A stretch of 64,000 nucleotides of DNA. Source: Tubiluchus corallicola. Lineage: Eukaryota; Priapulida; Priapulimorpha; Priapulimorphida; Tubiluchidae. This document shows positions 35,358 through 58,119 of the stretch, piece after piece. Within the stretch, counting starts at the first letter, position 1; each line of letters starts with the position of its first letter. The stretch lies in the NCBI GenBank assembly GCA_030141605.1, contig JAQGDQ010000086.1, forward strand, positions 491,418 through 555,417, given 5' to 3'. The translations under genes were made by a program, and so were the position numbers. The notes below the pieces were generated by a model that made no database searches, was not told the origin of the DNA, and saw nothing but the letters and a program-made list of their open reading frames with translations.

Positions 35358-35475
35358 CTAGGACTGAGGTGCCGATGTACTCCCAGAACGATGGAAATGG
35401 ACGTTGACCCATCTGGCACCTTTTCTTTGCCAAATTCTTGTCTCTTCAGACTGCTGCGTTCTAGGAAAATTGTTC
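35358..35475 (-). CDS. CaMKII-hub gene last exon (118 nt)
   Basis: Encodes [38 protein letters not shown] and TAG at 35358-35360. Acceptor CATTTTAG. The usual GQGRPRT turn is replaced by RNNFPRT and HRRDGKW by QRKGARW, so this is a divergent copy, while the surface SEETR and HFHRSG blocks are kept. Confidence 0.92.
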
Positions 35476-38400
35476 CTAAAATGAAATAATAAAGGTTTGG
35501 GTCAAAAATGAGCAGTATGGCTGTCTCTATTGCTATACAGTAAACTCTGTTTAACTCCTTCAGGACCGCAAGAGTTTGCAGCATTTTCCATGGGTTCAAC
35601 AAAAATTGCTCTCACTAAGCAGCGATTAAGTTATATTTGATAATTTTCCTACATTTCTACTCCTAACACAATGGATTTTTACACCAAAAATTATGGATGA
35701 AATGCATTTGCTTACCTTAGTCTAATTAAAGATCGGCTTTTTGACAAAAAAAAATCGAAAAAAGATTTCAGTAACTGCAGTGTTTGTATTGTAACAAAGT
35801 ACAGTATCACTTGTACAAAATTAGCTAATGCAGAAAATTTCAACTATCCAGACACTATACTCTGATACAATTTGGTCTCAAGTCTACTCTATTTTTAAGG
35901 AAAAATTCCTGTTAAAAGATGAAACAACCTTATTTTCTCCTTGGTGGACTGGTTGGTTTTCCTAGAATTCTGTACAGCAGATAGTTCTCTTAAGCTGTAG
36001 CAAGAGCTATAGCAATCAATAAAGTAGTGTGTACGATCACGCAACTGTACAACAGATTAAGCCGTTGGATGGTGTGCCTGAAAAGGGCGTCCTTTTTCTT
36101 AATTTTATCTACTTATAAATGTTTAAACAAATAGCGTGATTGGATAGCTGAGATTCATCTGAATAGAGCAGTAACTAATTTGTAATCATTTAGTTATGTC
36201 TGTGCTCATACAGTAGCAGTAAAGTCATAGGTCTTATAAGAACTATTATTAATGATGCGGTCCTAAAGGAGTTATGGAGGCATCGAAATTACAGGCTAAC
36301 TAACTTACTTATCAATATATTGGGTAAGAAATGCACAGTAGAAATGTTAAGCAACAGCATTCGTGTAATTATCCATCAGCATTGGGATCAGACAGCTGCA
36401 CATAAATTGTACATTATTTTTGCGGCCAATGTCGAGTATTGCTTTTCATCAACGGCCACTGCAGTAATTATGCGTCCACAAGATGTGAGACATAATAATT
36501 GAATTTTCTTTATTATTCTCACAGCTCACATGTTTAACACAGTGTCCCAAACCACTAAATATACAGGTAAAACTACCATTACTATAAATTATTCACAAAA
36601 AAAATGTATAAATGTTGAATTACTAATTTAGCGATATAAGACGTTAAATTACTACTTTTGAGGTATAAAACGTTGAATCACTACTTTAGCGGTATAAAAT
36701 GATGAATTACTACTTTAGCAATATAAGGTGTTAAATTACTATTTTGGCGACATAAGATGTTAAAATACTACTTTGAAGATATAAGAAGTTGAATTACTAT
36801 TTTGGTAATCTGAAATTTTAAATTACTACGTTGGCATATAAAATGTAAAATTACTACTATAGCAATATAAAAACTTCAATTACTTCTTTAGCGGCGAAAA
36901 AATTGGTTGAGTGTCTCGCCAAATCTACAGATCGCCCGCATAAGAAAACAAAATTTTGCAAAAAAATTGCTTATAATACCAGGAATTCATTACTTACCTA
37001 TCTATAAATTGAGTAAGTCGTACGTAAGCTATACATGCCGCATCGTCTCCCAGTAAATGTACACACGGATTCACGATAGTGGTATTTGTCTTACTCGACA
37101 GCTTGTTAAGAACTGAAAAGTGAAACCGGCTGTTTATAAACTAAGTATTAAGTGTGAGCCCAAATGCTTAAAGACTGAGCATTAGCAAGATAGAGCCATA
37201 AAACCTGCTGTTTGTAAATGAAGCATTTGCCACATGCAGTCATTCATCAACTTTAAAATATTCCAGAAGCATAGCCGCAAAATCTGTTGCTTTGAAACTA
37301 TACAAGCATTTACAGTGTAAAGTAACGAAATCAGAACTTCCAATTTAATGTTATACGGTTATTGATTTTTTTCTACAGTCTTGTAAATTTCAGTTTTGTA
37401 TTAAAGCAGTTTTTCTGTGGTAATATGACAAAGCATACTTCCTTATTTGTCATAAACATTTGTTAGAGGCACCTGAACTGCCTCTGTGATTTGGCATACA
37501 GAAATGTAACTTTGTTGTTATTATTGTACTTGAATTAGGACTAGGAAACGAATGGTGTTTATTACCTAAACGTTTGGAATAAATGAAAACCGTTCTTCTC
37601 AAGACTATAGTTAAAGTCATTTCTGCTAAGTTCGCACTATACCATCAAGTCAAAGCTACAATACAGAGGACTCCAACAACACTAGAACAAGCATGTTTAT
37701 GTTATAACAGTATAGACTAGTAAGTGTCTGAAAGGCACAGCCGAAAAATGAGAACTTTTAACTATATAAACAGAGTAAAAAGTTCAAAAGTATAACAAAT
37801 GAATTAACTCTAAAACCACAATAATCGTCCATTGTTTCTTTGGAATAATAATCATTCTATGGTCAGATGCCCATACTCACAGATATAGAACTCACAACCA
37901 TTTGAAATACCCTTTAACCTAGATGCAGAACAGAGAGATTCATGAACAACTTTATCCCATATGGCTTATTTAATTTCCAAACTTAAGTTTTGACTCATTT
38001 AATCTTAATTTATTTCATTCATGTATCTTGTAACAGTGTAACAGTGCTTGTTCTATGTTCTACCTTGCTTATTATCATTATTATTAGAATACAGCTGACA
38101 AAAAAAATAACAGTTTTAAAGGTCAAAAAGCAACTCAATGAGGAAACTACATGATCATTTCGAACTTAAAGAGGCGAGCAAAAATGCTCTTATAATTCTT
38201 GACTGCTCACCTTTCCTCAAGGCAGCAGTAGTAATGAGGAAATTTATGCTCATCTCAGTTTGTTGGACAAAAGCAGGGAGATCTCGGTTCGAATTTCCCG
38301 ATTGTCTGTATTTACCTATACTAAGCTAATACAGTAGGCACCACGTATTAGACTCGCGGTAATGTAGAATCAATCACCTAACTGTCTCAAAAACGTCTAG

Positions 38401-41400
38401 TACGGGCCACTCCTGACAGACAAGCTACATACGTGTCATTACACGCTGCTTGGTTGCACTGATGCTATGATGCAAACAAAGTGATGGTCCGCCAACTAGT
38501 GGGTCAGCTTGCATAACGACGGACTGTGTCCGTAGTATGCGGGACTTTTAACAATCCAGATTTTGTTCGATCTTTCTGATACCCGTGTGTGTTTATGATC
38601 ATTACAAATTTAAGGGGAAGGTAAAGATAATACTTCTTCTAGTTTCGTCTCTATAATAAATCACATTCCTAAGAAACATTCTATAGCATGTGCTGCCCTC
38701 TACTAGTTATTCGACTAAAGTTATCCAACACGTGTGCCTTACCATTGTCGAAATAAAACTTATGGAATGCCATGCCTTCAACAAGATGTCCCACTGCCTC
38801 TGGTTCAAATGAGGTCAAGCCCGGATCACAAAGCTTTCTGTTAAAGGACAAGAAAAGTGGTACGTGAAGTAGGTTTCAGAAAATCACCTTCAGCAATTTT
38901 ATGCATACATCACACTCGTGTTAAAAGAAATTTGCTTGTTTTCATTTTAAATCTACTGTTCCATGTATGTCATGCACGCAAACGTAAATCTGGGGAAGGA
39001 AAGGCAATGTTAAATTATGTCCCAAAAAACTTTCCATGCTAATCTATATTACTTAGCATTTCGCTTACCTGCTGGAAAGACTTATGTAGCCAGAAATAAT
39101 AATTTAAAATGTTCATACCAATTGGTAAAATGTCGCTGGCTCACCCTCCAGGGTGTGCCACTCGCTAACCAAAAACATATTTTTAATGCTATTGACAAGA
39201 TACAGTAATTTAAAATTTTACTTAGTAACATGTGTGCTACGAATGCTCTGATTATTTTTTCAAACTTCGCGCAATGTTATCTAAACATGCATAAAACAAC
39301 CTACCATTAAAGCGGCTGTGCCTAACGGTCATTGCGGGAGTCTAAATTTACAAGTTTTATACAGCGTTACTGTCAACGCAAGCCCTCTATGCAAAAAAGC
39401 AGTACCGTAAGTGGTATAAAATTTCAAGATGAATTTTTAAGCTTTACGTAAATGGAGGGTTTTCTTGTGCTTTAAGTATTATTCTTTATAATACACTAAT
39501 AATCCATATAATGCATACAATAATCGAAAAACTATCCAATGATTAATCATAAAAAAAAAAAAAAACATAGACAATAAAATGAGAACCATGACAATAAAAA
39601 CTTATCGAAACCGATCAACTTTTCCTGCTTTTCAAAAGTTCAGTGCAATGCATGCAAAATGGAGAATGTTGTTACATTTGCCTGACATTTCTGCATGGCT
39701 GCTTCGCTACCGTATTCCCAAAAAAAGTGTTTTCTTGAAAAATCTTACTGTCTTGTTTATAAGAATTCACCTATTAAACTGCTTTCATTGACACTAACCT
39801 TTAACATTAAAGTGTTGTTAGGGGCATTAACGATAACGATAAGTATGGCTAATTATTGCGTCGATAATTGTCGATTATCATATCGATATGAAAAAATAGT
39901 TTTTATTGTTATCATTCTAAGTATATCGTTATCAGGTCGAATTTGGTACATATCACTGCTTACCACTCACCTTTATAAAGACATTTCACTTTGGTTTTTC
40001 ATTTATGCACTGAAATTGCAGGATATCAGTTTACTGACACACGAATTTCAAGTGAGGTATTTTTAGAAGGATTATGTGCAAGCAGTATAGCTCATATAGA
40101 CATCATAAATTTAATATTATTATGTAGCAATAGGTCTATACGTAATATATTTATCTGTCATAGCTTGCATATTAATATTATTTTACGACTAAACAAAGAG
40201 GAGAATTTTGTCAAGAACTATAGTAACAAAAACTATACATTAATCGGGAGACAGCCCGCAAAATAGGTTGCTGCAATACACTTACAACTCCTTGCACAAC
40301 AACCACAATGTTTTTATCGTTCGAAATTATTCATCGTATAACATTGTATCGTCTGAAAAACAGATTATTAGTTATCCTATCGCCAAACTTGTATCGTTTA
40401 ACATCCCTACATGTCGTAACAAAAACCAGATAAACTTCAAATATAAGGATACTCAATACAGTTTTAAATAGCCAATTCTTTCAAACTGTTATTAGAAAAC
40501 AAAAAAAAAACTTTTTAATACTTACGAGTAAGTAGCAAAATCACATGTAGCAATCGCTCTAATTAAATTCTTCGTTAGCTGAATAATTTCTTCTTTTCTG
40601 CCTGAATAACAGTGGGAGTTTGGAAATCGGCAATTACAGAATTATGAAAACTGATTAGGCTTGAACAAATACTGGATACCAAGTTTTGCCAATGTGTATT
40701 GAAGGGGAAGTAATGAAAGTTGCCTATTGTAGTGTATTTTGTTTTTGCGGAGTGTTGCCACAAAAAACAATTCCAGAACTCCTCTGCCATTGTAAATTCG
40801 CAAATGTACTTAAAGCTGCATATAATTTAAGACCAAAACAACTCATACGTCTTCTTCTGTGTTCATACTACTACGCCTCAGTTTCTTTACGTTGCTGTTA
40901 CTATCCAGTAAAAAACAAAACCTGTAGATTATCGAGATTACAATAGACAGTTGGAACAGTGAACAAAATCACAGAAGGAAATGGTGTAGACTAATTCCAG
41001 TTATAATTCAAGTAGCGTAGAATAAATCAAAATATTTCTGCAATACAAACTACAATTTTAGTCTTTTAGTCTCTAAGCTGAATGATAGACTAAAGTTTAA
41101 TAAACCTGCAATTAGTCAATCATTATTAAAATAAACATTGACAAAACGAAAAGAATTTGAAAGCTAAAGACAAGGTTGGATTTAAACTGAAAACTTTTGT
41201 GGGAAGGAAGAATACTACAATAGGCGATCATCACCACGCCCCCTTCAATAAACTTTGGTGAAAGTTGGTACTAAATTATATGTTCAAACGTTTAAACTTA
41301 ATAAGTTTTTCTAACTTCTATCACAGTTATGGAACGTATTAAACTGGCAAACGTTTAAGCACAAAACATCTATAGCATTTTTTAATAAAAACAATTAGCA

Positions 41401-44400
41401 CATACAATAGATGAAATAGACACAAGCGTAAGAGCAAGGTGTCATTTGTAAATTATATTTGAAGTGAATAATCACAGAGTTTCAATTGCTCCTTTTAAAA
41501 AGACAACAAACAATTTTGTCGTACCATTGACAGAAGACTGCTGCGCCATCTGGCTGTGCGTTCGTATGTTTTCCACGGCTGCTATACCTTGTACTTCAGA
41601 TTGTATAGGTAGTCCTACAGAATAACAGAAACAATGCATGAGGTTCCACACATTGTATGGGTGCTTAAAGGCAGCATCCTTGGATGACAGTTTTGTGCAA
41701 AATCCAATAATGTTAAAACTTAGGGTTTGGAGTTGGAGTCGGGAGTAAACTTATTGTTAGAAGAGTCGGTGTTAGAATCGGTAAAAAATACACAAACTCA
41801 AATTCCAGTTACTTTTAACATTTAATGCATTTAGGCATAATGTCTCATTTTGGGACACTTTTGTATTGGTGTTTATGCAGCTAGACTATTTTTCAAGCAT
41901 AAGAAGTAGTGATGAAATGCCACTGTAGCTAAATATTGAGACTACTACAAACTATTATTTAAAGGCAGGAGTCGGAGTTGGATTTAAAATTTTGGGAGTC
42001 AGAGTTGGATCTTCTAAAATTCTAGGAGTAGGAGTCAGAGCCAGAGTCAGGAGCTTAATGTACCGACTCCACGGCCCTGTTTACTACGGCACTAGCATTA
42101 CATGGGTGCTCCCTAAAAAACATCGTTGAAAGGCAGTTTCATGCAAAAGCGAATAATAACTTTACTAGACGATCAAGCTCTCAGACTGACATTGCGGGAG
42201 CATTGTCCATACTCTAGTTTGTATCTTTACACTACAAACATTGATCGTTTTACTACAACTTTAGGAATCTACTCAGAACTGGATTTTATATTCAGATTAT
42301 AAAGAGCACATTCACAAAATTAGACCAAAACAAACTTTCTGGTTTGTTCAAAAGTATCCAATGGCAATTAATTTAACTGCCACAGTAAACATCTAATGCT
42401 ATTTAAAGGAAAAGCCAACCCTCAAAACAAATTCAATGTATTTTAATATGCATTTAAAACATTGAAATTATCATATAATGTACACGCACAAAATACCTTA
42501 CCTAAAAATCCAAAAGAAATTTAAATCTTTCGTATCACCGACAAACGAACATCCCTGCGGGAATATAAATTTGAAAAAAATGACAATTTGGTGGACTGCA
42601 CAAAGGCACGCATAACAAAGTTTCTGCAGTTCACTAAGGAATACCACTATTCTAGCTGAAAAAATCTTTGTGTTTAACTGCATTTATGTAAAAATTAGTT
42701 ATCAGATCAATTTGCAATAACTACAAAATTGCTCACACAGCTTTAATCCACAGGATTATACCTCAAAATCCACGTGAGCTAAACAATATAATTACAGATA
42801 AGCATGTAATTCTGCAAGGGTGTGAGCCTACAGTAGATGCCGCGCAGTTTACTTAAAGTAAAACCGGACCCAATCTTAAACTGTAGGTCAAAACAATCTG
42901 CTCTTTAAAATATTGAAAGAAGACATACTATTTTTTTGTAAGAATGACTTACATGAAAGAATTAGTACCACACAAATACAATTTTGCACTCGTGCCACTA
43001 GCTCTTCGCTGTTACATGCATTTCGCCATTTGCTTATTAGACGGACAAATAGCGCCTGCATTTCGGAAACGCATTGCACAAAAACAGGTGCTGTACCTTT
43101 CAGTTCAGCTGTGTTAGTTTCTGATGAGCTACGCACGTTATTTGAATTTTTATCTTAAAATATGCCTAGTTTTAGTACAACACACTGAATATCTTACAAT
43201 AGCACTGTATTTTCGTTTTTGCAAATATGTGCAACACGCTCGTGGAATACTTTTGCTGTTGAAAATGATGTTAGTTTGTGATGTTGCCAATAATTGGGCT
43301 CGCCCGCCGTTATTTAAATTTTTAATCTATTAATTAATTATCAGAAACGTTTTTGCAATATTAATCGTATTAAATGTGTACATTTATTGGACTTGAAAAT
43401 GGGATAGTATATGAAAAATCATCCTGTCTTCCTTTAACTTACAGAGTTTAGTCTTAGCTTGTTAAATTAATTTACTTTGTCGGTGTTAATTAACCGGATT
43501 GATTACCATTGGTAAGTGGCTTTCACTACATAGTAGACAAAGGGATTCACCAAAAAAAATTGTATTAATAATCTCTCATTTAACATTTTAAATCGTTTTT
43601 GTAGTTGGTAATTGTAACTAGTGTTGCTCCGGACATCCGATTCGTATCCAAAAATGGCGATATTCGCGAGATTTTGCAGGTATTCGTATTCGATATTATC
43701 TGAAAGTTATAAAAATTTGATATTCGCAAATATTCACTATACGGTTTTCGTAATGTGCAATTGAAAATGGTTTTCATGGTTTTAATATAACAGCTGAAAA
43801 TATAACTAAATAAAATATTACCAAAAAAAGAGATCGTTTTAGCCCATGTCTGTGTTTTCAACACGAAAATTTTACACACATCTTTCTTCGTTTGTATGTG
43901 GTAATACGGTGCATCTTTGGGTTAGGTCTTTTTAGATGATACATTAAATGAAAATGCTAAAGTTTGCAAACATTTACTTTATTTTTACCATTTATTTTAC
44001 CAATTTTTCATTATCCGAACTAATCCACAAATTCGATCGAATTTAGCTAAACCTATCCGAATCCGAAAGTCAATTTGAGGAAATCCGGTATTCACTATCC
44101 GGCAAAAAAGAAGTATGCTCAAGCACCTGACGGGATGAGAGCTTATATTATGTGGTAACCGGATAACACCATTTTCGTTCCAAATGAGCCCACCCAAGCT
44201 TGAAGTGATCACAACTCTAAATTAATTTTACCAGTTACACGAGGCGCTTATCACAATTTTATTGCTGAAACTTTCTAACTTTTTCTTCAAATATTAAAAT
44301 AAGCTCAACTTCCCAAGCGACTTGGCTTTTCCTTTGACAAACTTAGTAATACGTGCAAAAAAACCATCATAATTATGGTGTTAAAAGAAGGCACCTGACT

Positions 44401-47400
44401 CGTCTTTAATAGTTTGCTGTCTGTCTCCTGCCAGATCATCACTCTGACCAGAACTCTGATCGCCTGTAAGAAAAAAATGAAAATTGAAAGTAGTTCAAGC
44501 AGCGAGTGCAAATTCAGTAATCAACTCTCATCTAGGTTTTTCGCTACATGAAGATGTGATATTTTACAATAAGACTCCTAGCAAGCAACACAGTATTATT
44601 TATTTTTCAATTCATTTTTACTTGCATATATATTAGAACGTACACAATGGTACGATTACATTTCACACGTATAACTACAGAACAGAACCATACATGCAAT
44701 TACATAATCAAGCTAGATGTTTCAAAATTATGTAAATGAAACATTCAACACAATAGTAAACTGAGCAAACTAACAGTTAAAGCACAAGAAAACCCTCCAC
44801 TTCCGTAAAGTTTAAAAAAATTCGTCTTGAAATTTTATACCACTTACGTACCGTCTTTTTTCATACAGGGCTTGCGGTCGCAGTAATGCTGTATAAAACA
44901 TGTAAATTTAAACTCTTCCTGCGATAACCCAGGCATTTTGATGATAAGTCATTTGAGACAAGTTTAAATAACACTGATTAAAGTTTGAAAAAACAATCAG
45001 AGCATTCGCAGCACACACGTCATTAAGTAAGTAAAATTTTAAATTACTGCATCTTGTCAATAAGATTAAAAATAAGTTTTTTTGGTTAGTGAGTGGTGCA
45101 TCCTACAGGTGAGTCAATGACATTTCACCAATGGGTGAAAGCATTTTAAATTAATCATTTTCTTTTCTAGTTACATAAGTCTTTCAAACAGGTAAGCAAA
45201 ATGTTAAGTAATACAACTCTGCATGGAAAGTATTTTGGGACATAGTTTAGCATTTCCTTGTCTTCACCTGATTTATGTTGTGTGCATATGACATCACGTA
45301 ATGGCGTGGTTGGAATAGTATTTATGTAAAAGAACTGCCCACAGATGGCCGCTCTTTATAGTACGTGTTCTTGCCAATCTTGTACCCCGCTTATACCTTT
45401 GTGTGAATTGTACAATTTTTTATTTCGCTTCATTTCTTTTTATTTGTGAGAAAATAGCCTTTGGCTAATGTTCTCTTTGAAACATTTGAAATATTCGACA
45501 ATGAATAAAATTTTTACTACTACTACTACTAACTGCACAGCTTTGCAATGCATATCTGACCTGACATGTTTTGTTACAAAATCTATTTTCATAGCACTGT
45601 CACTAATGGTCCTTTTGAAGGCCCAATTATAGCTACGCATCGACCGTAGTTTTTCATTACGTTCTCGATACACAGTACAATGTACGCAATTTGCACATGA
45701 TATTTTAAAAAATTTCCGCAAAATAATCTCGTCCAACCCGCTACAGTTTCAAGTTTCACAGTAGTTATGTGACTTATCCGGGTTCGTTGCTATACCGCGG
45801 TTTTTTCTTTTCTTTTTGGCATAACTCAATTCTACCATCACTCCCGAACGATATGGCAAATCTTCGAGTCATCAGTTTCAATACACCCGACCAACGTGGA
45901 CACAACTCTCAATTATTTGTACAATACTCCTACACTTCTCTTCTCGTGCTGTAGGCTTTTGGAAACCACTTAATAGTGAAATTTCTGAAGCATCAGATCT
46001 GGCTCAATTTCGAAAATCGTCAGGGAGAGGCCGTCAAAAACCATGTTATGGTTAGGTCTCTTACTTCGCAAGCAACTACGTGCACATAAAAAATTTGGAT
46101 TGCAGTACGGTACTCCTGAGTTTACATGCGCAGCGCAGCGCATCCACTGATAAGCAGTTGGAGTCAGGCAACTTGACCAAGCAAAAACTCAAAAGCTACA
46201 GTAAGCTGGTACTCAAAAGTCGAAACCTGCAGAAAATCCGAGCATTTCCTTTTAAACAAAACTGAACTATTTTTGCGTACCAACATTGCACAAATCCGTG
46301 ATTTCCACTTTAATACGACTGTGAAGTTGCAATTCATCCATATCTCAAAACATGTCTTTAGGAGAGAATTATTTCGGCGTTACGTCTGGTCTTTTAATTT
46401 ACACAGGTAAATGCTACAGACTCATATCACGCTCGAAAGGTTTCGCATGACTTACTGCACAACACGCGCATGCAGGTGTATAAACGTAGGTGTGACAACT
46501 GGAGGCTAGAGTCATACTAGCCACTAATAGCTAGTAATCTAATACTGCTCCATGTCAATTGCAGACGACGCAACATTTTGCGTAATCAGTCTAACGCAGT
46601 AACGACAAAGTACAACTCACCTTTGTTGATACTGACTACATTAACAGTTTTCTATCAGAAATACAACAAATTTAAGATTAAGATTGTTTATTTATCTCCT
46701 TTAAGTTCTACAATACATGGTAGACACAGTAATAATTTTGACATTTTACAAACTAATAGATATTTGTTAGTAGCCTACTACGTGTTAAAAAGAAAGGTTA
46801 ATTGTATGGAGAAAGGGTGGAAAAAGACCATACGGCAACTAAGTCAGCCACCCCTATTTACGGATTTAATACCTTCCGTACATGGCTGCATTAGAGCTCA
46901 TTTATAACACTATTGATTTTGAAAATTCCTTCAATTCAAAAAGTCCAGCACAAATTAATGATGAAAAAATTCTGACGAACTAACAATTAGGGACTAGTAA
47001 GTATGGAGCTTCAAAGAACTGAGGAACTTCACTAGAACTGAACAGAACCGTAAAAGAAGTCAAAATGCCCTTTAAGTCTAAAAAAATCTATTAAGTCTGT
47101 TTTTTCCTTCAGAAGCTTTCGCCTCTCACGGACTTCATCAGCTGAAATCAACTTGATTTTGTTGGTTTTGGAAAGGCACTCATTTCACTCCATTCATGAC
47201 GTTTCTTGTCTGCATACCAGCTGTCACTGTTGCAAAGTCCACAACAACAGTGTCTTGTAGCACCTTTTTTAAGTTCATTGGTTGTTTTACTCTCCATTTT
47301 AGGTAACTTCTAATACAGGTGCGATCAGGACTCCATCGTTGAAGAAGTCTTTGACGAACCAAACACGATTATTAATTTTACTGCAGTATAACCCGCATTT

Positions 47401-48918
47401 TGTACGACCTGGTCGAGTGTACGTGGAGCATGCGCACTGCGTTGACTACATTTAGACTGTAATTCACCAACAACAGGCTATTGTTCACTATCGGTTAATG
47501 ATGAAATTAATCCGCAATTACCATTCTGAAATCAAACTGACAAAACGTAAACGTAAAAACTCAGACTGAGCACAGATTTGAACTAACGTAGGCCTACGCA
47601 TCCAACATCATTACTTGCCAGACTACACAGTCCCATGTTCTAGTGAATTGCGACTATCGTGGATTCAAATTAATCTTAATTAATATCCCACCATTCAACC
47701 CAGCATTCCTTAAAATGCTCTTGCTAAAGTAACTACTAAGTAATTAGAGTAATTTTTTGTAATTAATTCATAGCCTGAAACGATGCCCGGGCGATTAATT
47801 AATTATTTATAATATCAACTCCAAGATTATTAGTTGTATTTCTCACAACCTCATAGGTAGGTAGACAATTCAAAATGATTCACATGTACAGACGCAACCT
47901 ACATTGTTGTCTACAAGACTTGGGTACGCGTCTACACAAGGGAGAGCGAATAGTTTAAGATCCCCTGTGAATAGGTTGCCTGTCTCAAACCGATTAAGCT
48001 TGACAGCTCAGCTATTTTACTAAACGATCCACTGCAAACCCAAAACTCAGTATTCAAATGACAGAGTAACAACTTATGCCTTTGTTATATATTGGTTGTT
48101 ACTATACCAGTTGTAGAAATGATCCACAACAAATAAATTAATGATAGCATCATCAGGACCTGAACCGCGTGATCCCGATCTTACAGGTTAATTGGGTTCT
48201 GGGGCAGTTATCATCTCAATTAGATAGGCTTCAAGGAATCAATCATCGCCTGGTGAAGCTGCTTTCATACTCCGCTGAGTAAAATGAAGCCAGCAAAGAG
48301 ATGTATAAATTCTGTCTTCATAGTATGTGCCACACAAAATGCCCTTGAAGCTGATCTATATCAAATTTATTATCTGCAGAAGCGAGCAAGGCACTTTAAC
48401 TGTCCAAAACAGACGATCAGACTACTCACAGCAGCCGTGTCACCAGAAAATGGCAGAAATACAGTACAATATAGGTAACACACTGCACATTGCAGGAGCG
48501 TCATTGCAGGGTTCTCTTTCAGCTACATTAACCATACATTAACCCTGCATTAACCAATAATTAATTAAACAAAATAAGCGAGTGCTTAGGCCGCAGGAGA
48601 AGAAGCATTCCATACTGGATCACACAGTTTTTTCAAATCGAAAAATCACCTAAAAGTAAAATATACTGGAACATATATGGCGGTTTTCTGTGTCCGTTTA
48701 CAATATCGCAGTACGGATGGACATCAAGATTTTGGCTACTAAGCAGCTTTAGCTGGTCACTGCCCGTAGAAGGGTATTTTAGTCGTCTTTGTATTTTTAA
48801 TCTAATATCATTCTTTTATGCAATGCAAAGCTGATGTCCTAGCATTTACTGTAAATAAATCTTACTGCAAGTTTTCCTTTTTCATTTTGAAAGATAAATT
48901 TTCGATTTTACAGTTTAG

Positions 48919-48959
<41 letters not shown>

Positions 48960-49079
48960 TTGGCAAACATATTTATGATAACTGTGCAAAGAAGAATAAA
49001 AAAAATTAAACAATATATAAATGAATTAAAAATTTATTTACTTACGTGAAAGCGACAACATTGTTGTAACTAGAGCACC
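35358..49079 (-). CDS. CaMKII association (hub) domain protein, seven exons; kinase domain not found
   Basis: The CaMKII hub domain assembles CaMKII into 12- or 14-subunit rings. Joining 49079-49046, 44463-44395, 41614-41525, 40601-40526, 38837-38743, 37112-36998 and 35475-35358 on the minus strand gives 597 nt in one continuous frame, 198 residues plus TAG. It starts inside the calmodulin-binding segment ([11 protein letters not shown]; the two Thr match the T305/T306 sites). A Ser/Gln/Asp-rich linker follows, then the hub: [61 protein letters not shown] and NVHFHRSG. The hub-pocket His and three Arg residues are all kept. Hub exon sizes 76 and 95 nt match vertebrate CAMK2 as I recall. No kinase or RRKLK exon was found up to 58120. 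Divergence within this usually very conserved domain suggests a paralogue. The 5' end is uncertain. Confidence 0.88.
35553..36273. mobile_element. TIR element C, copy 1 (AACTCCTTCAGGACCGCA ends)
   Basis: About 720 bp bounded by AACTCCTTCAGGACCGCA and its inverted form TGCGGTCCTAAAGGAGTT. The left end is preceded by TT and so reads TTAA-CTCC; the right end reads GGAG-TTAT. TTAA-like flanks would suit a piggyBac-type element, but this is not proven. Its interior matches 49280-49959 in inverted orientation (shared words include TCAAGTCTACTCTATTTTT). Non-coding. It lies in the last hub-gene intron. Confidence 0.7.
36610..36895. repeat. 29-30-bp tandem repeat, about nine copies, in a hub-gene intron
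   Basis: The unit is AATTACTACTTTAGCGATATAAGACGTTA with frequent substitutions. About nine units run from 36610 to 36895, roughly 100 bases downstream (in transcript sense) of hub exon 3. Confidence 0.8.
36998..37112 (-). CDS. CaMKII-hub gene hub exon 3 (115 nt)
   Basis: Encodes [20 protein letters not shown] and [17 protein letters not shown], the most diagnostic CaMKII hub stretch. Acceptor CTTTTCAG, donor AG|GTAAGT. Confidence 0.93.
38743..38837 (-). CDS. CaMKII-hub gene hub exon 2 (95 nt)
   Basis: Encodes [20 protein letters not shown] and [11 protein letters not shown]. Acceptor GTCCTTTAACAG, donor ATG|GTAAGG. The pyrimidine tract of the acceptor belongs to a dispersed repeat that starts only a few bases upstream of the exon. 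Confidence 0.92.
38838..39475 (+). mobile_element. Dispersed element A, copy 1
   Basis: Matches 44783-45310 (inverted) and parts of 58770-59765. Landmarks are TTTGGGACATAATTTA on one strand and the terminal words TTAGCATTTCGCTTACCTG and GAGGGTTTTCTTGTGCTTTAA. The left edge (TTAAAGGACAAGAAAAG) begins at the splice acceptor of hub exon 2. Confidence 0.7.
39819..40409. mobile_element. TIR element ending TAGGG, hAT-like
   Basis: Starts TAGGGGCATTAACGATAACG and ends GTATCGTTTAACATCCCTA, imperfect inverted repeats. Flanks AGTGTTGT and CATGTCGT agree at 5 of 8 positions, a possible decayed 8-bp duplication. Several plus-strand ORFs across it have no recognisable family. It lies in a hub-gene intron. 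Confidence 0.6.
40526..40601 (-). CDS. CaMKII-hub gene hub exon 1 (76 nt)
   Basis: Encodes [20 protein letters not shown] and FATY, the first hub helix (RKQEIIKITEQLIEAV in vertebrates). Acceptor TGTTATTCAG, donor TC|GTAAGT. Confidence 0.9.
41525..41614 (-). CDS. CaMKII-hub gene variable-linker exon b (90 nt)
   Basis: Encodes [20 protein letters not shown] and QMAQQSSVN. Acceptor TTCTGTAG, donor ATG|GTACGA. Phase 1 at both ends and 90 nt long, so it is a second skippable cassette. It has no catalytic or hub signature. Confidence 0.75.
41720..42080. mobile_element. Repeat with GGAGTCGGAGT ends
   Basis: Starts near GGTTTGGAGTTGGAGTCGG and ends with GAGTCAGAGCCAGAGTCAGG and ACCGACTCCACGGCCCTG. 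GGAGTCGG and CCGACTCC at the two ends form an inverted pair. This end type is common in small animal DNA elements. No ORF. Confidence 0.5.
42859..43428. mobile_element. Dispersed element D, copy 2
   Basis: Inverted relative of 16629-17233. An 81-codon ORF on the plus strand (42913-43158) shares LLHAFRH, TKTGAV and SDELRT words with the ORF on the minus strand of copy 1. Lies in the hub-gene intron between linker exons a and b. Confidence 0.7.
43615..44125. mobile_element. Degenerate TIR element with TCCGGACATCCGA / ATCCGGTATTCACTATCCGG ends
   Basis: Left terminal GTTGCTCCGGACATCCGATTC and right terminal GAGGAAATCCGGTATTCACTATCCGG, both followed or preceded by ATATTCG/CCGAATCCG words. No coding signature. 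The boundaries are approximate. Confidence 0.4.
44165..44340 (+). repeat. Dispersed repeat family B, copy 2
   Basis: Direct diverged copy of 26545-26690, ending at CTTGGCTTTTCCTTTGAC. Lies directly beside linker exon a of the hub gene (44395). Confidence 0.6.
44395..44463 (-). CDS. CaMKII-hub gene variable-linker exon a (69 nt)
   Basis: Encodes [20 protein letters not shown] and ES, with split codons at both ends (phase 1 in, phase 1 out). Acceptor TTTCTTACAG. The donor is weak: CAG|GTGCCT. Being 69 nt and symmetric, it can be skipped without a frameshift, like the known alternatively spliced CaMKII linker exons. The frame comes from phase continuity and the acidic/serine-rich composition. 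Confidence 0.72.
44783..45310 (-). mobile_element. Dispersed element A, copy 2
   Basis: Reverse complement of 38838-39475 with about 80-90% similarity by eye. Begins AGCACAAGAAAACCCTCCAC and contains TTTTGGGACATAGTTTAGC. Contains no ORF of note. Confidence 0.7.
45730..46050 (+). pseudogene. Non-LTR retrotransposon RT C-terminal remnant (plus strand)
   Basis: One plus-strand frame gives [20 protein letters not shown] and LAQFRKS near 45930-46020. This matches the RxxFWNSLPxEIRxxxSLxxFKxxL tail that closes LINE ORF2 proteins. The ORF is broken by shifts. A LINE-like tail ending in an AATAAA word and (ACT)n occurs nearby at 45500-45530. Confidence 0.6.
48919..48960. repeat. (TA)n microsatellite
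   Basis: Alternating TA with a TTTA interruption, 90 bases downstream (in transcript sense) of the GALVTTML exon. Confidence 0.9.
49046..49079 (-). CDS. CaMKII-hub gene exon encoding [11 protein letters not shown]
   Basis: 34 nt between TGCTTTCAG and AC|GTAAGT. It starts in phase 0 and ends in phase 1. It matches the CaMKII exon encoding GAILTTML, which in other animals follows the RRKLK exon with the same phase. This is the most upstream exon recognised with confidence. Confidence 0.82.
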
Positions 49080-49279
49080 CTGAAAGCAAGAAGAAGAAAT
49101 AAGTCTTGATTAGTACTAAAGAGCTAAACGCAATACAATAATAGTTACTGGTAACAATGACGGTGACAGCAGTAACAACAGCTTGTTTATTTCTTACTGC
49201 AATAAGCATTAATGGGGCCGCGGAGTGTATTATAGCGTTTTATTATAGCGTTTTTTGATAATTGTAAGTTACGATACTA

Positions 49280-49959
49280 CTCCGTTAGGACCCTACCATT
49301 CAATTAGGCCTGTGACTTTTTTGCTACTGTATAAGCATTGACGTAACTAAATGATATCTATTCAGGAGAATCTCGGTTTTTCAATCATGCTATTTGTTTA
49401 AACATTGGTGTGATTTAATTGAAAAAATTAAGAAAAACACACTCTTTTCAGGCATTCCAAATTACCCTATCGAGTAGCTTAGTCTGGTGTATACTTGCGC
49501 GATCGTAGATTACTATTTTATTGATCGCTGCTTGTTACAGCCCAAGCTGTGCAGTGTTCTGCTACTATTCCAGGAAAAACCAACCGATCATCCAAAGACC
49601 AATTAAATTTTTCATCGTTTAACAGGAATTTCTCCTCAAAAATAGAGTAGACTTGAGGCCAAAGTGTATCAGAGTTCTGTGACTGGATAGTTAAATTTTT
49701 CTGCATTAGCCGATTTCACACAGTACTTTGTTACAGTGCAAACAGTGCAGTTACTGAAAGCTTTTTCCGTTTTTTCGTCAAAAATCGATTTTTCATTTGT
49801 CTAAGATAAGCAAATGCATTTCATATATAATTCTGCAAGAAAATACATTTGTGTGAGGAGTAGAAAGCTACAAAAATTATCAAATATATCGTTGCTTAGT
49901 AAGAGCAGTTTTTCACCAACCCATACAAAATACAGCAAATGCTTACGGTCGTGAAGGAG
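49280..49959. mobile_element. TIR element C, copy 2
   Basis: Starts CTCCGTTAGGACCCTAC and ends CGGTCGTGAAGGAG; inverted relative to 35553-36273. Shared interior includes AAAAATAGAGTAGACTTGAG. The two copies bracket the seven recognised hub exons. Confidence 0.65.
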
Positions 49960-51137
49960 TTCAGCGACTGTAAGACTGCAACTTCTGTGGAACCACAGGG
50001 CGAAAATCACCCAAAAACAGACAATTAACGCCAATCCGAAACAATTAGAAATTTTAAGCTGATGATGAGCTCGAACAGCCTCGTGCTACACGTTTTTCTG
50101 TACATATTCATTCATCTCGTCACTTGTCTTCACTTGAACTTGATCAAATTACAGCAATAGACTACAAGAACACAGAACGGAATTAATTAAAGCCAAGCGT
50201 ATAGTAATTACCAGTAGAAATTAGGACAGCTAAAGAGCAAATGTCATGAAGACAGCTTATGGCCGACATAACCTATAGCATTTTTGTAACACTGTAGCTT
50301 GTGTATTTATTTGTGTTTGTTTGCTTTGTTTCTGTGTATTCAGTTATTGAAATTTTAGACACCGCGTAGTCTTACTGTTTAGTCTTGTTAACGTTTTTAA
50401 TTCTGTCGCGATATTTTAGATATTTTTGCGAGGTGTCGTTAAATATCGTCTATAGATTAAGACGCTATACAAAATAGATATTATTATTATTATTATTGTT
50501 GTTGTTATTATTATTTGTTTCTTTATTTGTTTGATTGTTTGTATGTTCGTTTGTTTATTTTTTTCGTTCTACCCGTTTATTTGTTTATAAGCTATGTACC
50601 TTTTTAGCAGATTTTTTTATACAGTTTGGCCGCATTAATAAACTGATTTTCAAAATTTAACGACTAGCTAGGAAAGAAAACTAGCTGCTTTTCTAAGAGT
50701 CGATATTAGACAGCCGGAATTATTTTAACCAAATTTGAGACGTGGTGTCTTCTATCAATGTCGTAAATAACCGGAAGCAGCACAGCAGATGAAGCAACCC
50801 AATCGTTCTTCTGGCGATCATCTATAAATCTACTTTAAAGGAACAGCATTGCCTATTTTGGCTGGTAAGCACACTCATTGTCATTACTCAGTCATTCTCT
50901 TGCAAGTACAATGCGATGCTGGTCACAAAACCACCGTGATAAATTGTAAATATATATATATATATATAGTCTTTATTTGCCATTAAAATACATTGATAAT
51001 CACGGAAAAAAGACTTTACAGAGATGCTAAAGGCAAATGCGTCAGTACAATCTAAACTACTGTGCAGTAACGAAAAGTAATGACGAATAAAAACAAAACA
51101 TATTTACTGTTCAGAAATATTAAAAATTATGATTTAA

Positions 51138-51467
51138 TTAATATCTCCATGGATACATGCTGTCGTACTGATGTGACGGTATTTCATATTTGGTTAATAT
51201 TAATGATTTTAATTTTGTTTTAAATGCTGATAGGGACCTAATTTGCTTAATCTGTAATGGTAGAGAATTACAAAGTAGAATTGCTTGCTTGATTACAGAG
51301 TTTGTTCCATAGTGGGTATTTGTCCCAATTTGTTTTAGATTACTTGTTCTGGAATTGATTACAGGATTTGGAAAAAAGGTAGATCTGTTATTCTGAAATG
51401 GTTTGCTGATGTTGTTAATGTGTTTAAATAATAAAAAGTAGAGTAAAATATTCTTTGTGTGCTTCAA
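51138..51467 (-). pseudogene. Non-LTR retrotransposon RT C-terminal fragment
   Basis: A 109-codon minus-strand ORF with the LINE ORF2 tail pattern: NLKQIGTNTHYGTNSVIKQA followed by ILLCNSLPLQIKQIRSLSAF and KTKLKSLIL. The upstream RT catalytic part is missing. Distinct in sequence from the 20.2-kb and 45.7-kb remnants, so at least two LINE lineages left tails here. Confidence 0.75.
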
Positions 51468-53549
51468 TGATTGGAAGTTTTAAAGTTTTTCTTTTGTTAG
51501 TTGTCGAAGCTTTGAATTTTTGTCTACCAGTCTTACGTTTGTCTGAGTACCCGGCTATCAATCTCACACGAGAACTCGCAAAAACACGAGAACGCGTAAT
51601 GAAAAGAATGAATCATTGGCATTAGAATGGACAAGATTTGAGTAAATTAGATCATATTGCTCCGGCCACCAGCAGTTCAATATTATTAAATTATGTTACA
51701 ATGTGCTAGGCCACAAATTTCACTATTACTGAAACATATAGTAGCACAACAACAAACTGCTGTGCTATAGTGACGACAACACTAATAACTGTGAAGATTA
51801 ATGTGTGCTGTACATCGCAATGAATTCTTACACTCAGTCATTCTTAAAATATTAACTCTTACAGCGGGGATAACCCAATCCAGTTAATTAAACCCGAGTT
51901 CGCGTATAAGTTTAGAAACTGCTAAAATGCAGCTGTGCTCTGTCTTTCACAACTAAGCAACAGCTGCATAACAGCCTCACTAAGAGTCACTCAAATTTGC
52001 CCAAGTAAATTCTCACAACTAAATAAGAGCAAGTTAAACTGGCCTTGTCGGTATTGTCTATTTATAACTTGCTGTATTCTGCAGAACAAAATCGAAATTT
52101 GAAGTCTTTCTCAACACTGAAATAAAATTTATGTATGACGCCAACTCATTGTTACGAAGTACTAATTCAAATCACTTAACTGCAAGTTCAGCAGTCAAGA
52201 GTTGTACGTGTGCCACGATACCTATTCAATCTTAATTTCCCAACTCGACCAACGACTTACCAACTTTTCTGGCTCTTGCTAAACCCAAAAGCACTTTAGA
52301 ATTAGTTTGTTTATTTTTGGAATCGTGCGTGTGGGCGTACGCCCAACGAACTTGTTAAACATTTGAGTTTAGTCGGGTATTGACGAAACTCTAATGTGAG
52401 GTGTGTCAACACAACTTCAAATTTGAATGTTAGGTCTATCCACTAACAATATTAGTGTTTTTGTGTTTTTATTAAACAATGTCGACAACATTGTTGTTCG
52501 TTAATTTGCTATTCACTTCTAAAAGCGGCAGTCAAATAATTTTTATGTCAAGCTTCCATGTTTTTGAACCACGCGCCTTCAGTATACTTTATCACCTAAG
52601 GTGAAATATAATTATGAAGACTATACAGTACTCCTTGTCTATTTACGTTGAACACGCATACATAACAAGAAATCATTTAGATTATTTCAAGTCACTAAAA
52701 GATTATTTTAACTGTTTATTAACCGTAAAGTTGCTTATTCTCTTAGAAGTAGAGTATTAATTTCTAGCAATGCTTTTGTGAGTGGTATTGTAAATAGTGA
52801 CTGTTTGTTTTATATAAAACTACATAACAAATGATTAAATCTACTATTTTGTTAATTATATGTAAATAGTAATTGCGTTATTGTAATTTTTTGCAATTAT
52901 TGTACTGTTGTTGTATTGTATTATTTTGTATTGTTATACTAACTGTCGTTATATGAGCAATGTTTGCAATAAAAGCTTTACTTCTTACTTACTTTGAGAA
53001 TTGTCATGTCCAGGAAAATAATTACATACATACATGTATAACATGTGCGGAATTCACTAATACCAACATTTTTCAAAATGACAGCCATACTTGTGATAAA
53101 TGAACTATTTTTCGTAAATAACATCAAGCACAAAAGATAATTAAGCAAACGTTTATCATAAAAAGGCAGCAATACCTACCTAAAGAAATATACCAGTCAC
53201 ACAGAGGCAGAAACACAAAAAGGTTGTTACTCTCTGAACATTAATAAGTACAATACTGAAAGTACATTATTAGCAAAATGCATAAGCTAAAGTTCACACT
53301 AACATGAACTTTAGACAGCATACGTTTACGCCTACCAGCTTTGATCTAGGGACATACTATTCACAAGTATGAAACATGTTACGTGATAACTCTCAATATA
53401 TGTAAACGTGAAAGATTATCGTTCAGCAGAATGTGACCTTGGAGTCGGAAAGAAAAAGTCTAGCAACGCAAAAAGGAAACTGATATTTGTTTCATACAAG
53501 CGTGAGCGTGTCAGTCTGGCTGCTTGACGCCGGAAGCAACCGGCTGCCA

Positions 53550-53785
53550 TTGCAGTAGTAGAAACAGCAGCAGCAGTGACAACAGCAGTAGAAAACAACA
53601 GCAGCAGTGGCAGTGGCAGCAGCAACAGCAACAGCGACAACAACGACAGCAGCGACGACGACAACAACAACAACAGCAGCAGAAAAAACAGCAACAACAG
53701 CTGCAGAAAACAATAACAACAGCAAAAAAAAAACAAAAACGACAACATCAGCAAGAACAACAACAAAAACATTTACAAGCAAGTG
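53550..53785. repeat. CAG/CAA/CGA trinucleotide-rich tract
   Basis: About 235 bases of CAG, CAA and CGA triplets on the plus strand. Frames read as poly-Gln, poly-Thr or, on the minus strand, poly-Leu and poly-Val. With all frames open and no flanking exon signals I treat it as a microsatellite cluster rather than a polyQ exon. Confidence 0.75.
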
Positions 53786-55102
53786 TATAACTGCAAAGAC
53801 TCAACGTGTAACCTCTAATTTAGCCATAATTGTTTGGTTAGTGAACTCTGGATAAAGGTAGCAGCCAGTCATAAAGTTTATAAGAACCACAGACAGCAGT
53901 CCTTCTCTCACTATACGACCATACTGGTATCTGGGATAGGCCTACTAATGTTAGCACCCTAGTAGACCAAGATGCCTTAAACAATATCATCAAATCTGGT
54001 GACATTATTCACTAGTGTCACCTTTAACCAGGACGAAAGGTCAAAGTCATACACTTTTTTCTGTGCTAAAGAATAGCGTATGCTAAGGTAACCGAATTTG
54101 GTGAGTTTATTCATATGCTAAAATCCACAATATCCGACATAAACACAGAGGTAAAAAGTCATCAAAGATAAAAAAAATTCAGGTCACGAATAATATCACT
54201 AAAACTTACCGAGGCTAAATTAGTGCAAAACACTGAAAATGGGAGTGTGCCCAGCAGCACAGGAAACAGAGCGTTAATGAGTGATGGTAATTAGTGTTCA
54301 GTAGCAGGGGCAACAGCAGCAGAGTACTTTTAAAGAGTGACAAGTGGACACAGGTCATTCACAGTATCCAGTTACAAAGATATGTTTTCACCTGGTACGA
54401 AAAAGGAGAGCTATAGTGGTTTGCCGTCAAAGGTCAAGGAATGGAAAATTCTGGTTCTCCTTTATTTGAAAGAGTTTTTGCCATCAAAGTGACCTTGACC
54501 ACTATAACCCAAGTCCCTACTTATAAATGCTCATTTTAAGTAGACAAAATATCTGTGCCTTATATGACTTAGGCGGCAAGTTAGGTCTAAAAGTATAGGT
54601 ATGCCATAAATTGGCCCTACCTATACATGGGAAACGAAAAACCTGAAGTCTGGTGATATTGGGCATTGGCAGTTTTCTGTCAAAGATGGGCAGACAGAGC
54701 AGACGAATGATCAAACATTAGGCCTATGACTCAAATCAGATTGTATGTTACATTATTATACTGCATTCGTGAAGTTGTAAATTCACTCAAGACCACATCA
54801 AGCCTTACTTAAAATGTAATGTGTCTACAGCATGCAAACCGTTAGATAACATGTCAAGTCTTAACCTTGGGCACTATCCTGTAGAAGTGGTTACGTGCAT
54901 AGCCGAATGTCTTATAATCTTATTTCGATAATTTTCATAAATTTAGTGGCATAACAGTTGCGTAAATCTTAAATTAGCAAGCGAATGTTCAGTTTTTTTC
55001 TGTTTCTTTTTACCTTTGATAGAGCTCAAATTCATAAGCTACACTGCAGGTTCTCCCAGCATCGAAAAAAGATAAAAAATCAGACAAGGTATATTTACTT
55101 AC

Positions 55103-55225
55103 CGTATTGACTATTAGAGATATAAGGCAACATCCTACTGCTATACACATCACATCGCCTGAAAGAGCTGACGAAAAGCATTTGTTGAGAAAGCATATTA
55201 ACTGTTCCACGAGAGCACGAAGCAT
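55103..55225 (-). CDS. Candidate first exon of the CaMKII-hub gene: short hydrophobic N-terminus
   Basis: An ATG at 55225 opens 41 codons that end exactly at a consensus donor (ACG|GTAAGT) in phase 0. That is the phase required by the GALVTTML exon at 49079. The peptide reads MLRALVEQLICFLNKCFSSA then LSGDVMCIAVGCCLISLIVN plus T, with a hydrophobic segment (VMCIAVGCCLISLIV) long enough for a monotopic or marginal membrane anchor. Vertebrate alphaKAP is made the same way: a hydrophobic leader exon inside the CAMK2A gene spliced to linker and hub exons. Against it: a second frame is open over the same bases, an internal CTCTTTCAG could make part of it intron, and the hydrophobic stretch could be chance. 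Treat as a hypothesis. Confidence 0.3.
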
Positions 55226-56082
55226 GATAACAGTCACTGTTGCTCACAGCCATGATATTTCCTATACATCGGACATTCCTCCGGAAAACAGCTCCTGAAG
55301 AAAAGCTTTACTAGGCGCAGCAAACCGATCAAAGGCAAAACTTTCTTTTTTCTCAAAATCTAATGAAAATTGAGGTTCTCACTCTCGCTATCTGGTTCTA
55401 AAACATTAATGTTTTATCTTAAGCATGTATTTCCCAGTGAAAGCAAGAAACACTGCCGTAAGCAGTGTGTAATAATAAAGCGTTTAATTGGTGGAATTGA
55501 TTAGTTGCGACTGGTAATTACACTGTATTAACTGGCTTCGCTACAGCCTGCAGGCTTCATGCTTTCAGCACCGGCTTCATACTGCGATCTGACTACCATC
55601 TGGCATTTACAAAAGCAATTAATATGTAACTGACAACCAAACCATATGTTTGTGTTAGAGACGACGAAGCCCTACCAAAGAAATGGTCGTGTTTAGCTAC
55701 CTACATCATTTTTTGGAAGGTCTTAGACAGCCATTGTCGTTCGCTTATAGGTATTTGTGTATTTAAACAATTCCACAAATTTTACTTTTGACTGACTATT
55801 ATTTAAAGTGACTCACGAAAATTTAGTTCTTCCAGAATTAAATATGCCTGCCTAAACAAAACCCAAGACTATTATTAAAAGTACGTATACATGTATTGAC
55901 CGCTACTAGTTTTGAATGCTATGTATATTTAAAGTATGAATGTGTTAGGTGATAACCCCAAGTTTACCAATAATCATTAGCAAGTAGAGCACGGAATTAA
56001 TGAAAAATCTTACAATGAAAGCAGAAATTTGGATGATATGGACATTAATGTATATATATATATACTATGAATAAATAAATAA

Positions 56083-56084
<2 letters not shown>

Positions 56085-56120
<36 letters not shown>
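56085..56120. repeat. (TA)n microsatellite
   Basis: About 18 TA units following an AAATA-rich stretch. A nearby GTATATCTAAGGC/ATATCGTCGTTAG segment is related to 24930-24990 in part. Confidence 0.85.
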
Positions 56121-56124
<4 letters not shown>

Positions 56125-56324
56125 GTATATCTAAGGCTATATATGTGTATAATATGTATATATCGTCGTTAGAGTGGCTACAGAAATATGGGTTAACAAA
56201 ATGTTCCCTTACATATTCCTTTTAAAATGGATAAAAATGGATAAATAGATGAAATTATTATATGCATAATAACAATACGTCAGCATCAGTTTCAAACAAC
56301 TTGCAGCAAGTTATCATTTAAAAA

Positions 56325-56401
56325 CAGACACACAAACAAACAAACAAACAAACAAACAAACAAACAGACAAACAAACAAACAAACAAACAAACAAACAAA
56401 T
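56325..56401. repeat. (CAAA)n microsatellite
   Basis: About 18 CAAA tetranucleotides with two CAGA variants. Confidence 0.95.
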
Positions 56402-56899
56402 AATTGAAATATTTGGCATAACATAAATCATGCTAGAAAACATTTTGTTTATTTTCATTGTTTCAGTAGTAGTAACGTTAGACAGCATAACCTAAGTTCA
56501 CATATTCAACAACTATATTCTACGTTCATAAATGCATTAAAATAAAAAAAATGTGATAGCAATAATATCTGCGAAAAATTATTTTAATATACCTTACAAA
56601 TTAAATCTAGGCGTACGAAAAGGAACACCATTAGTGCTTCTCGTAACTCAAGAGATTAAGACATGTTTAAAAAATAACAGTTGCTTAAATCTTTAAACTT
56701 TCCCGAGAAGCAATGCCGTGTTTTTTATTTGAAGCAAGATAGGCTACTCTAATAATTAATAAGGTATCGGAAATCATAGAAGTAATAATACATGACCGCA
56801 AATTAATAAAAGTGCTGCATGTGTTGTAATAATATAAGTTAATAAAACATACAAACTTACAAGCAGTTAATCATAACACTATTTGCATATCCATTTTTT

Positions 56900-57330
56900 C
56901 AGTAGCTTAATGTGGTGATCCACAAGGCTCTATAGGCCTATTTGGACCACTCCTAAAACATTCCTTGCAGATAAACCACGTTAATTCACTGCTGAGGCAA
57001 AAATACCCATTTTGATTCATTTTCACAAGGCTGGATAGTGGACGATCTACTACATTTGAATTTCATTAATTTTATTATCATTATTAATCATACAAAGTCA
57101 CTAGCAGCTAATTACAATAGCATTTGGCTAGCTAATGTGGTGTTCCAGAAGGCTGTATTCGCCTATTTGGACCACTCCTATACATTCCATTTATATATAA
57201 ACGATGTTAATTCAGCACTAATGCATAAACAGCCGATTAAGTTTTTTTTGGTAATTAATTCGTTTTCACAAGGCTCGACTATCTATTCGCCATGCTCTGA
57301 ATACATTTATACCTTAGAGGTTAATGTGTG
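56900..57330 (+). pseudogene. Two degenerate copies of a LINE reverse-transcriptase motif
   Basis: At about 56911 the plus strand reads CGDPQGSIGLFGPLL and at about 57137 CGVPEGCIRLFGPLLYI, then in another frame YINDVN. These are decayed forms of the GVPQGSxLGPLLFxxYINDL block of non-LTR reverse transcriptases. The two copies are about 226 bp apart and share flanking words (ATTTGGACCACTCCTA, TTTTCACAAGGCT), so they are a tandem duplication of a dead fragment. Confidence 0.7.
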
Positions 57331-58119
57331 GCACATTTTATTTCAACAATGATACTAGCTTTCAACGTGCTTATATTACCGTTGTACTTTTGTATACATA
57401 TGTGATGAGAAATAGATAACTTATAACATAAATTTGCTATTAAAACATAAAGTTAATTCATTAAACTTAACTACGAAAATGTTCACAATAAGCCCTGTGC
57501 CTAAAGCAAACATTTGCAGTTAGAAAATAATAGAACAGAGCAATTTGAAACCAGTGTAACAAACGTTTTCAAACTAAAGCAAAACAATTTTGCAGCCCTC
57601 AACTGGTTGATCTAACAAGAATGACTAGGTTTCACTAGAAAGCCCTCTTTGTTAAAGCGTGTTTTATCTAGGCTACTACAACGCTCCTACAAGGCTACTA
57701 CAATGTACACGTGGATTTGCACATTATGGCTACTTAACTATTCTGTAAGACCGACATCTTACGACAATTGGCCTCAACGTTCATCTAATTTATCATAATT
57801 AATCAACATCTAAACTCAAATACCTATACTAAAATGTCATGCTAAAACTCTATAATCTGTAATCCTTTTGCCTATAATCTCTACTATGTTCTACTAAATC
57901 TCTACTACTCTACTACTATAACCTCTATAATGTTCATACTAAATGTATACGTAATGATACTTTCTTTAAACAAGTCTATTTAGTAATCTGTCGCGTTCAA
58001 CGAATAGTTCTCTTGTTGATTCGCAGATGGCACCACCTAACAGTAAAGGTTAGTTGTATTTTCATTGCTCCATTCTCACTCAGCGAAATGTGATTAAACC
58101 AACCCAAAAGCAATGGTGT

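Follow-up and report, generated by a model that had tools for sequence, protein, structure and literature searches.

A putative kinase-less CaMKII hub gene in the priapulid Tubiluchus corallicola

INTRODUCTION

Free-standing proteins built on the CaMKII association domain (CaMKII_AD), or hub, occur in bacteria and algae, and the closest described counterpart of the gene presented here is vertebrate alphaKAP, whose N-terminus is hydrophobic. According to PMC9913510, alphaKAP is a product of the CAMK2A gene itself; it combines the association domain with an anchoring (lipid) tail and brings CaMKII to the sarcoplasmic reticulum. Here we describe a minus-strand gene in a 64,000-nucleotide stretch of the genome of the priapulid Tubiluchus corallicola (contig JAQGDQ010000086.1, positions 491418-555417, forward strand; hereafter, the window). 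Judging from its exon structure and from searches of the assembly, this gene is probably a CAMK2 paralogue in its own right that lacks the kinase, a partial duplicate that would encode a linker and the hub.

At the gene level, the window gene is like alphaKAP in specifying a hub without a kinase and, if a candidate first exon is right, a predicted hydrophobic N-terminal anchor. It is unlike the CAMK2A-derived alphaKAP in that its hub is a gene of its own, located on contig C1844 (that of the window) as opposed to the contigs C1310 and C1355 that carry CAMK2, and in that this hub is diverged and its docking groove changed. It also differs from the free hubs outside animals in having CAMK2 intron phases and in scoring best with animal CaMKII hubs. 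Among 14 control genomes, PF08332, the CaMKII_AD family, was found in three, each with a bacterial name, and solved hub relatives outside animals include 6of9 and 3h51. No separate hub-only animal gene was found in the literature searched, which is not proof of its absence in print.

Should this reading hold, an arrangement like that of alphaKAP can originate from a duplicated gene and not solely as the product of a kinase gene, and ring assembly would be naturally separated from both kinase activity and subunit exchange. A hub that has lost its kinase as well as the putative docking groove, existing beside an ordinary CaMKII, would in turn represent an evolutionary experiment on the disputed exchange of subunits, and could serve as a ready tool for capping or anchoring rings.

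THE HUB GENE AND ITS DOMAIN CONTENT

The genome assembly comprises 343.5 Mb in 2344 contigs, and the window sequence contains no N. On its minus strand, from 49079 to 35358, lie the seven exons that a first-pass annotation had joined in phase into the tail of the calmodulin-binding segment, a linker, and a complete hub (Table 1). That model is confirmed: all seven acceptors are AG, all six donors are GT, and the joined exons (597 nt) form an uninterrupted frame of 198 codons and a TAG stop, with phases that run 0-1, 1-1, 1-1, 1-2, 2-1, and 1-2 before the last exon. The product consists of the piece of the regulatory segment that follows RRKLK, two linker exons, and a hub that is complete, covering positions 1-127 of the 128 of PF08332 (E 1.3e-49; 168 bits against a curated cut-off of 22.1). 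At E <=0.001, the PDB contains 19 distinct matching sequences, the majority bearing the name CaMKII, with the human CaMKII gamma hub at their head (1.6e-57); the matches 5ig4 and 2f86 were deposited as predicted or hypothetical protein.

The remnant of the regulatory segment in exon 1 reads GALVTTML, compared to GAILTTML in CAMK2. Matches to GAILTTML of at least six of eight residues directly after an AG occur at one place in the window and nowhere in 100 Markov shuffles; at the laxer cut-off of five of eight after AG, five matches appeared in 30 shuffles. The short first exon is not a chance match. About 220 bp upstream of it, a segment of about 100 nt (49303-49400) has similar counterparts at around 36.1, 79.1, and 124.3 kb, which places a dispersed repeat close to the first known acceptor of the hub gene.

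SEARCH FOR KINASE AND RRKLK EXONS AT THE LOCUS

Between exon 1 and the next gene, the first-pass annotation had seen no kinase or RRKLK exon, and both tblastn and a tile scan, the latter coarse, are in agreement. With human CAMK2A as the query, tblastn over the whole window recovered the four hub exons, whereas residues 1-300 had no convincing match. The ungapped scan of the window with 37 kinase tiles reached best scores of 20-32, not above those of reversed tiles (18-37). Its controls define its resolution: tiles inside hub exons were found, with scores of up to 91, and those lying over the GAILTT exon, over the linker, or over one junction of hub exons were missed. Small kinase exons hidden in 49-58 kb were considered as a separate possibility and rejected, given that tiles score like reversed tiles in this coarse scan.

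Kinase exons might also lie beyond the same-strand myosin gene to the right, a placement that the first-pass annotation had raised, and the remainder of the contig on that side was searched for them without any being found. The contig measures 680,573 bp, and the 125 kb between the window and its end brought the sequence searched to 189 kb. Across these 189 kb, tblastn retrieved hub exons only, besides two weak matches (E 0.83 and 2.5), and the N-termini of human and fly CaMKII matched nothing below E 0.29, that match being a P-loop exon. The P-loop exon, on the same strand and ~81 kb from the window start, is presumably part of myosin. The kinase of the species' own CAMK2 gave no tblastn match at E 3 in the window plus right flank, and the best hmmsearch score obtained with it there was 6.4 bits (E 1.9), compared to 35-84 for true exons on C1355. 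An RRKLK exon was likewise found neither in the window nor in the 125 kb rightward to the contig end, and of the autoinhibitory/calmodulin-binding segment GALVTTML alone remains. With neither a kinase nor an RRKLK exon found, the window gene is by definition not a CaMKII.

THE ORDINARY CAMK2 GENE AND THE GENOME-WIDE INVENTORY

A second, canonical CAMK2 gene, which the first-pass annotation had proposed to seek, is present: one ordinary CAMK2 is encoded in full elsewhere in the genome and extends across C1310 and C1355. Genome-wide, PF08332 matches six exons at two places, the window gene and C1355, with three matches at each. The latter contig carries 13 CAMK2 exons from residue 92 to the stop, with consensus splice sites and including RRKLK and GAILTTMLATRNFS, and CAMK2 exons 1-4 are located on C1310; the protein joined from both contigs matches Pkinase at 5.8e-78 and CaMKII_AD at 7.1e-57. 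The left end of C1310 and the right end of C1355 share an overlap of about 7 kb (C1310:1-7204, C1355:57132-63782), with an identity of about 95-97%. Owing to this overlap, the notion that the N-terminal kinase exons on C1310 belong to a second, unassigned kinase gene was rejected. The overlapping ends hold short-period satellite arrays, and the satellite-bearing overlap is probably the reason why the assembly split the ordinary gene.

Kinase scoring across the genome covered the best 89 of 248 candidates for human CAMK2A and the best 150 of 252 for the species' own kinase, and yielded 92 listed matches to the former and 117 to the kinase stretch of the latter. Among the matches listed, all those of at least 65% identity lie on C1355 or C1310, the remaining ones are 24-64% identical and are taken as other kinases, and none falls on C1844, where the hub exons alone match. 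A match on C1793 over residues 245-306, at 43%, we take to be CASK and not a hidden CaMKII. With the ordinary CAMK2 located elsewhere and no listed kinase match of at least 65% left unassigned, the original suggestion of a separate kinase-less paralogue is supported.

The same inventory bears on the alternative that the window gene is an ordinary second CAMK2, whose kinase exons lie beyond the myosin gene or were lost by misassembly. Such a loss would be at home in an assembly so fragmented that the ordinary gene itself is split over two contigs, and the acceptor of exon 1 is a good one in phase 0, which in CAMK2 receives the RRKLK exon. Against this stand a window without N, a search to the contig end that revealed no kinase exon, and the assignment of every listed kinase match of at least 65% to C1310 or C1355, which together make a second ordinary CAMK2 very unlikely. 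As an aside on the ordinary gene, its linker-hub intron contains a tandem 51-nt repeat (C1355 20595-20972) with an open plus-strand frame (CQQQIEPAREICHTNES).

ORIGIN OF THE COPY

In its linker and hub, the window gene is like the ordinary animal CaMKII gene of C1310 and C1355: the positions and phases of the introns agree, and hub exons of 76 and 95 nt are shared. Unlike the ordinary gene, it has no detected kinase or RRKLK exon, its hub is identical to the ordinary hub at 82 of 131 residues, and acids of the groove are lost. The shared CAMK2 intron phases, taken together with the best scores with animal CaMKII hubs, argue for secondary loss of the kinase. The copy probably arose by a segmental duplication with its start in the intron that separates the RRKLK exon from the GAILTTML exon, which would have placed the 3′ half of CAMK2, namely, the last piece of the regulatory segment, the linker, and the hub, between a myosin and a slo gene.

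DIVERGENCE AND CONSTRAINT

The hub had been described in the first-pass annotation as unusually diverged, a claim that holds for some comparisons and not for others. Identity to human hubs is 56-63% for the window hub and 69-73% for the ordinary one, and identity to the C. elegans hub is ~50% for both. In an LG+G4 tree of eight hubs, the window branch is ~2.7 times as long as the ordinary one (0.44 vs. 0.16). With the fly hub as the outgroup, the window hub exhibits 27 unique differences and the ordinary hub 10, and a comparable excess is seen with human delta (24 vs. 10) and alpha (25 vs. 8). The excess is not significant with gamma (23 vs. 13; chi-square 2.8), and with C. elegans the counts are equal (11 vs. 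11).

At codon positions 1, 2, and 3, the window and ordinary hubs differ at 44, 25, and 89 of 131 codons, and the frame is free of stops and breaks. This codon-position pattern and the intact frame suggest constraint on the window copy, on which purifying selection probably acts, although part of the pattern stems from the ordinary gene, itself constrained. The fourfold sites, of which 9 of 29 are identical, are saturated; the nonsynonymous divergence (dN) is 0.31, and its synonymous counterpart (dS) is not computable.

The divergence also invites the view that the gene is a relic, that is, a duplicated 3′ half of CAMK2 whose transcription has ceased or that is decaying. The longer branch and the 27 versus 10 unique differences are in keeping with decay, as is a first exon that is a candidate only. 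However, 198 codons without stop or frameshift and a full set of intact splice sites, despite saturated silent sites, are difficult to reconcile with a relic, as is the retention of contact and pocket residues described below, and we regard this explanation as improbable.

HUB RESIDUES AND THE DOCKING GROOVE

The proposal that a groove of the hub serves as a docking site reportedly comes from Bhattacharyya and colleagues. As set out in PMC4859805, the groove residues E355, E359, E390, and D393 form a possible dock for the KKFNARRKLK element, whose docking would open the ring; whether exchange proceeds as proposed is disputed (PMC10468207). At positions 355/359/390/393, the window hub has K/R/E/A, the ordinary gene E/H/E/D, and C. 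elegans Q/D/E/E, and all four sites are acidic in the human hubs (alpha E/E/E/D) and in the fly hub. The window hub has lost three of the four groove acids (E355K, E359R, and D393A). It retains the ring-contact residues F397, Q436, and T446, the latter two mapped to alpha numbering by agreeing letters, as well as the pocket residues H395, R433, R453, and R469. Changing F397 to alanine in human alpha frees dimers and Q436 and T446 are named for a Nematostella hub (PMC4859805), and the four pocket residues are given as such (PMC12148480).

The consequences of a hub that lacks RRKLK can be considered in light of two human alpha proteins described in PMC4859805: a kinase-less hub with linker and autoinhibitory segment undergoes subunit exchange and is about 35% dimer, and the bare hub forms 12/14-mers only. 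As exchange and dimers accompany the autoinhibitory segment and not the bare hub, the loss of both RRKLK and the groove fits a stable hub-only protein, and a natural protein of this kind would gain stability from it. The shift of the groove from acidic to neutral or basic would further render rings or dimers that contain the window hub resistant to opening by the calmodulin-binding element.

CANDIDATE FIRST EXON AND PROPOSED FUNCTION

The acceptor at 49079 requires either an upstream phase-0 exon or a noncoding leader followed by an ATG within exon 1. Of the eight ATG exons in phase 0 that lie between 58119 and 49080 and have a fair donor, the one at 55225-55103 has the top-score donor together with a hydrophobic end (MLRALVEQLICFLNKCFSSALSGDVMCIAVGCCLISLIVNT), and would, hypothetically, provide an alphaKAP-like hydrophobic N-terminus. 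This combination occurred in 2 of 300 shuffles. In the same-genome background, it occurred in none of 190 segment-phases with a hydropathy window of 15 residues and in 2 of 190 with one of 19 residues. One of these two passes is the first exon of BK; the other, a first-exon-like open reading frame on the plus strand of the window and right flank, we take to be an N-terminal exon of an ENaC/degenerin-type channel, and both may be real exons. Relaxing the cut-off to 1.9 lets through 7 of the 190 segment-phases with 15 residues and 4 with 19. A local blastn search of the window with its right flank, C1355, and C1310:1-50000, about 300 kb in all, found no second copy of the candidate exon besides one 28-nt piece.

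The most likely function of the product would be that of a kinase-less subunit which co-assembles with CaMKII and either anchors or dilutes it. Hub-only subunits and the ordinary CaMKII of the species would form mixed rings with fewer kinases per ring, and the hydrophobic first exon, if real, would tether the ring to a membrane, like alphaKAP. We infer expression, co-assembly, anchoring, and exchange resistance of the hub-only protein from its sequence. In its fullest form, this reading would imply that a dedicated alphaKAP arose independently in an invertebrate: a separate gene, derived from CAMK2 by partial duplication, for a membrane-anchored, kinase-less hub whose reversed groove lets mixed rings resist activation-triggered opening, and we offer it as a tentative proposal.

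The second way of satisfying the 49079 acceptor leads to a different protein. Starting at the exon 1 ATG (MLSLSRDQ...) behind a noncoding or trans-spliced leader, translation would yield an anchorless, soluble hub-only protein that dilutes or caps CaMKII rings. The ATG has an A at -3 and is preceded by a TTTCAG acceptor, both of which suit such a start; yet the hydrophobic candidate exon, with its fitting phase and top-score donor, argues for an anchor, and the soluble form is possible but doubtful.

Several points weigh against the main reading of a separate hub-only gene. A strongly diverged kinase could escape scoring that is confined to the best candidates. Between exon 1 and the myosin gene, fair-donor ATG exons in phase 0 are no more numerous than in shuffles (8 vs. 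7.9), and the hydropathy thresholds were chosen after the candidate exon had been noticed. As to the groove, the identification of its residues awaits hub mutants, according to PMC4859805. The loss of three of four acids there, compared to 2 of 13 other conserved acids, is suggestive (Fisher p 0.053), the groove sites vary in any case (E359H in the ordinary gene, E355Q in C. elegans), and the letter-based mapping of Q436 and T446 calls for similar caution. The tree placement and age of the duplication appear weakly supported (node support 53), the TTML piece of the regulatory segment is retained without obvious need, and the hub-only gene, its first exon included, is known here from genomic sequence alone.

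NEIGHBORING GENES AND OTHER FEATURES OF THE WINDOW

The exons of the hub gene, the candidate first exon, and the two neighboring genes are compiled in Table 1. For both neighbors, BK and myosin, the top matches are invertebrate entries, a hint of a protostome and no more.

Table 1. Coordinates of the hub gene, its candidate first exon, and its neighbors in the window
Feature	Position	Strand	Remarks
Muscle-type myosin heavy chain gene, 3′ part (upstream neighbor)	58120..63363	-	Continues right of the window; best PDB match 3.3e-51
Candidate first coding exon (hypothesis)	55103..55225	-	41 amino acids; hydrophobic end; donor GTAAGT; phase 0, as 49079 needs
Exon 1 of the detectable gene	49046..49079	-	Corresponds to CAMK2 exon GAILTTMLATRNFS; begins in phase 0; holds an ATG usable as start
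Linker exon	44395..44463	-	Phase 1-1
Linker exon	41525..41614	-	Phase 1-1
Hub exon 1	40526..40601	-	76 nt, also 76 in the ordinary gene; bears E355K and E359R
Hub exon 2	38743..38837	-	95 nt, also 95 in the ordinary gene; bears D393A, retains F397
Hub exon 3	36998..37112	-	115 nt vs. 109 in the ordinary gene
Last hub exon and stop codon	35358..35475	-	118 nt vs. 121 in the ordinary gene
BK (slo) potassium channel gene, first exon (downstream neighbor)	18667..19035	-	4.3e-16 to BK structures

Two repeats were observed elsewhere in the window. Within the myosin region, 60041-60211 and 60464-60634 constitute a near-identical duplicated segment, seen as twin tblastn matches. A tandem repeat at 9754-10921 has long open frames, composed of FPFVPCFPVPFLPTF-like units, in three minus frames.

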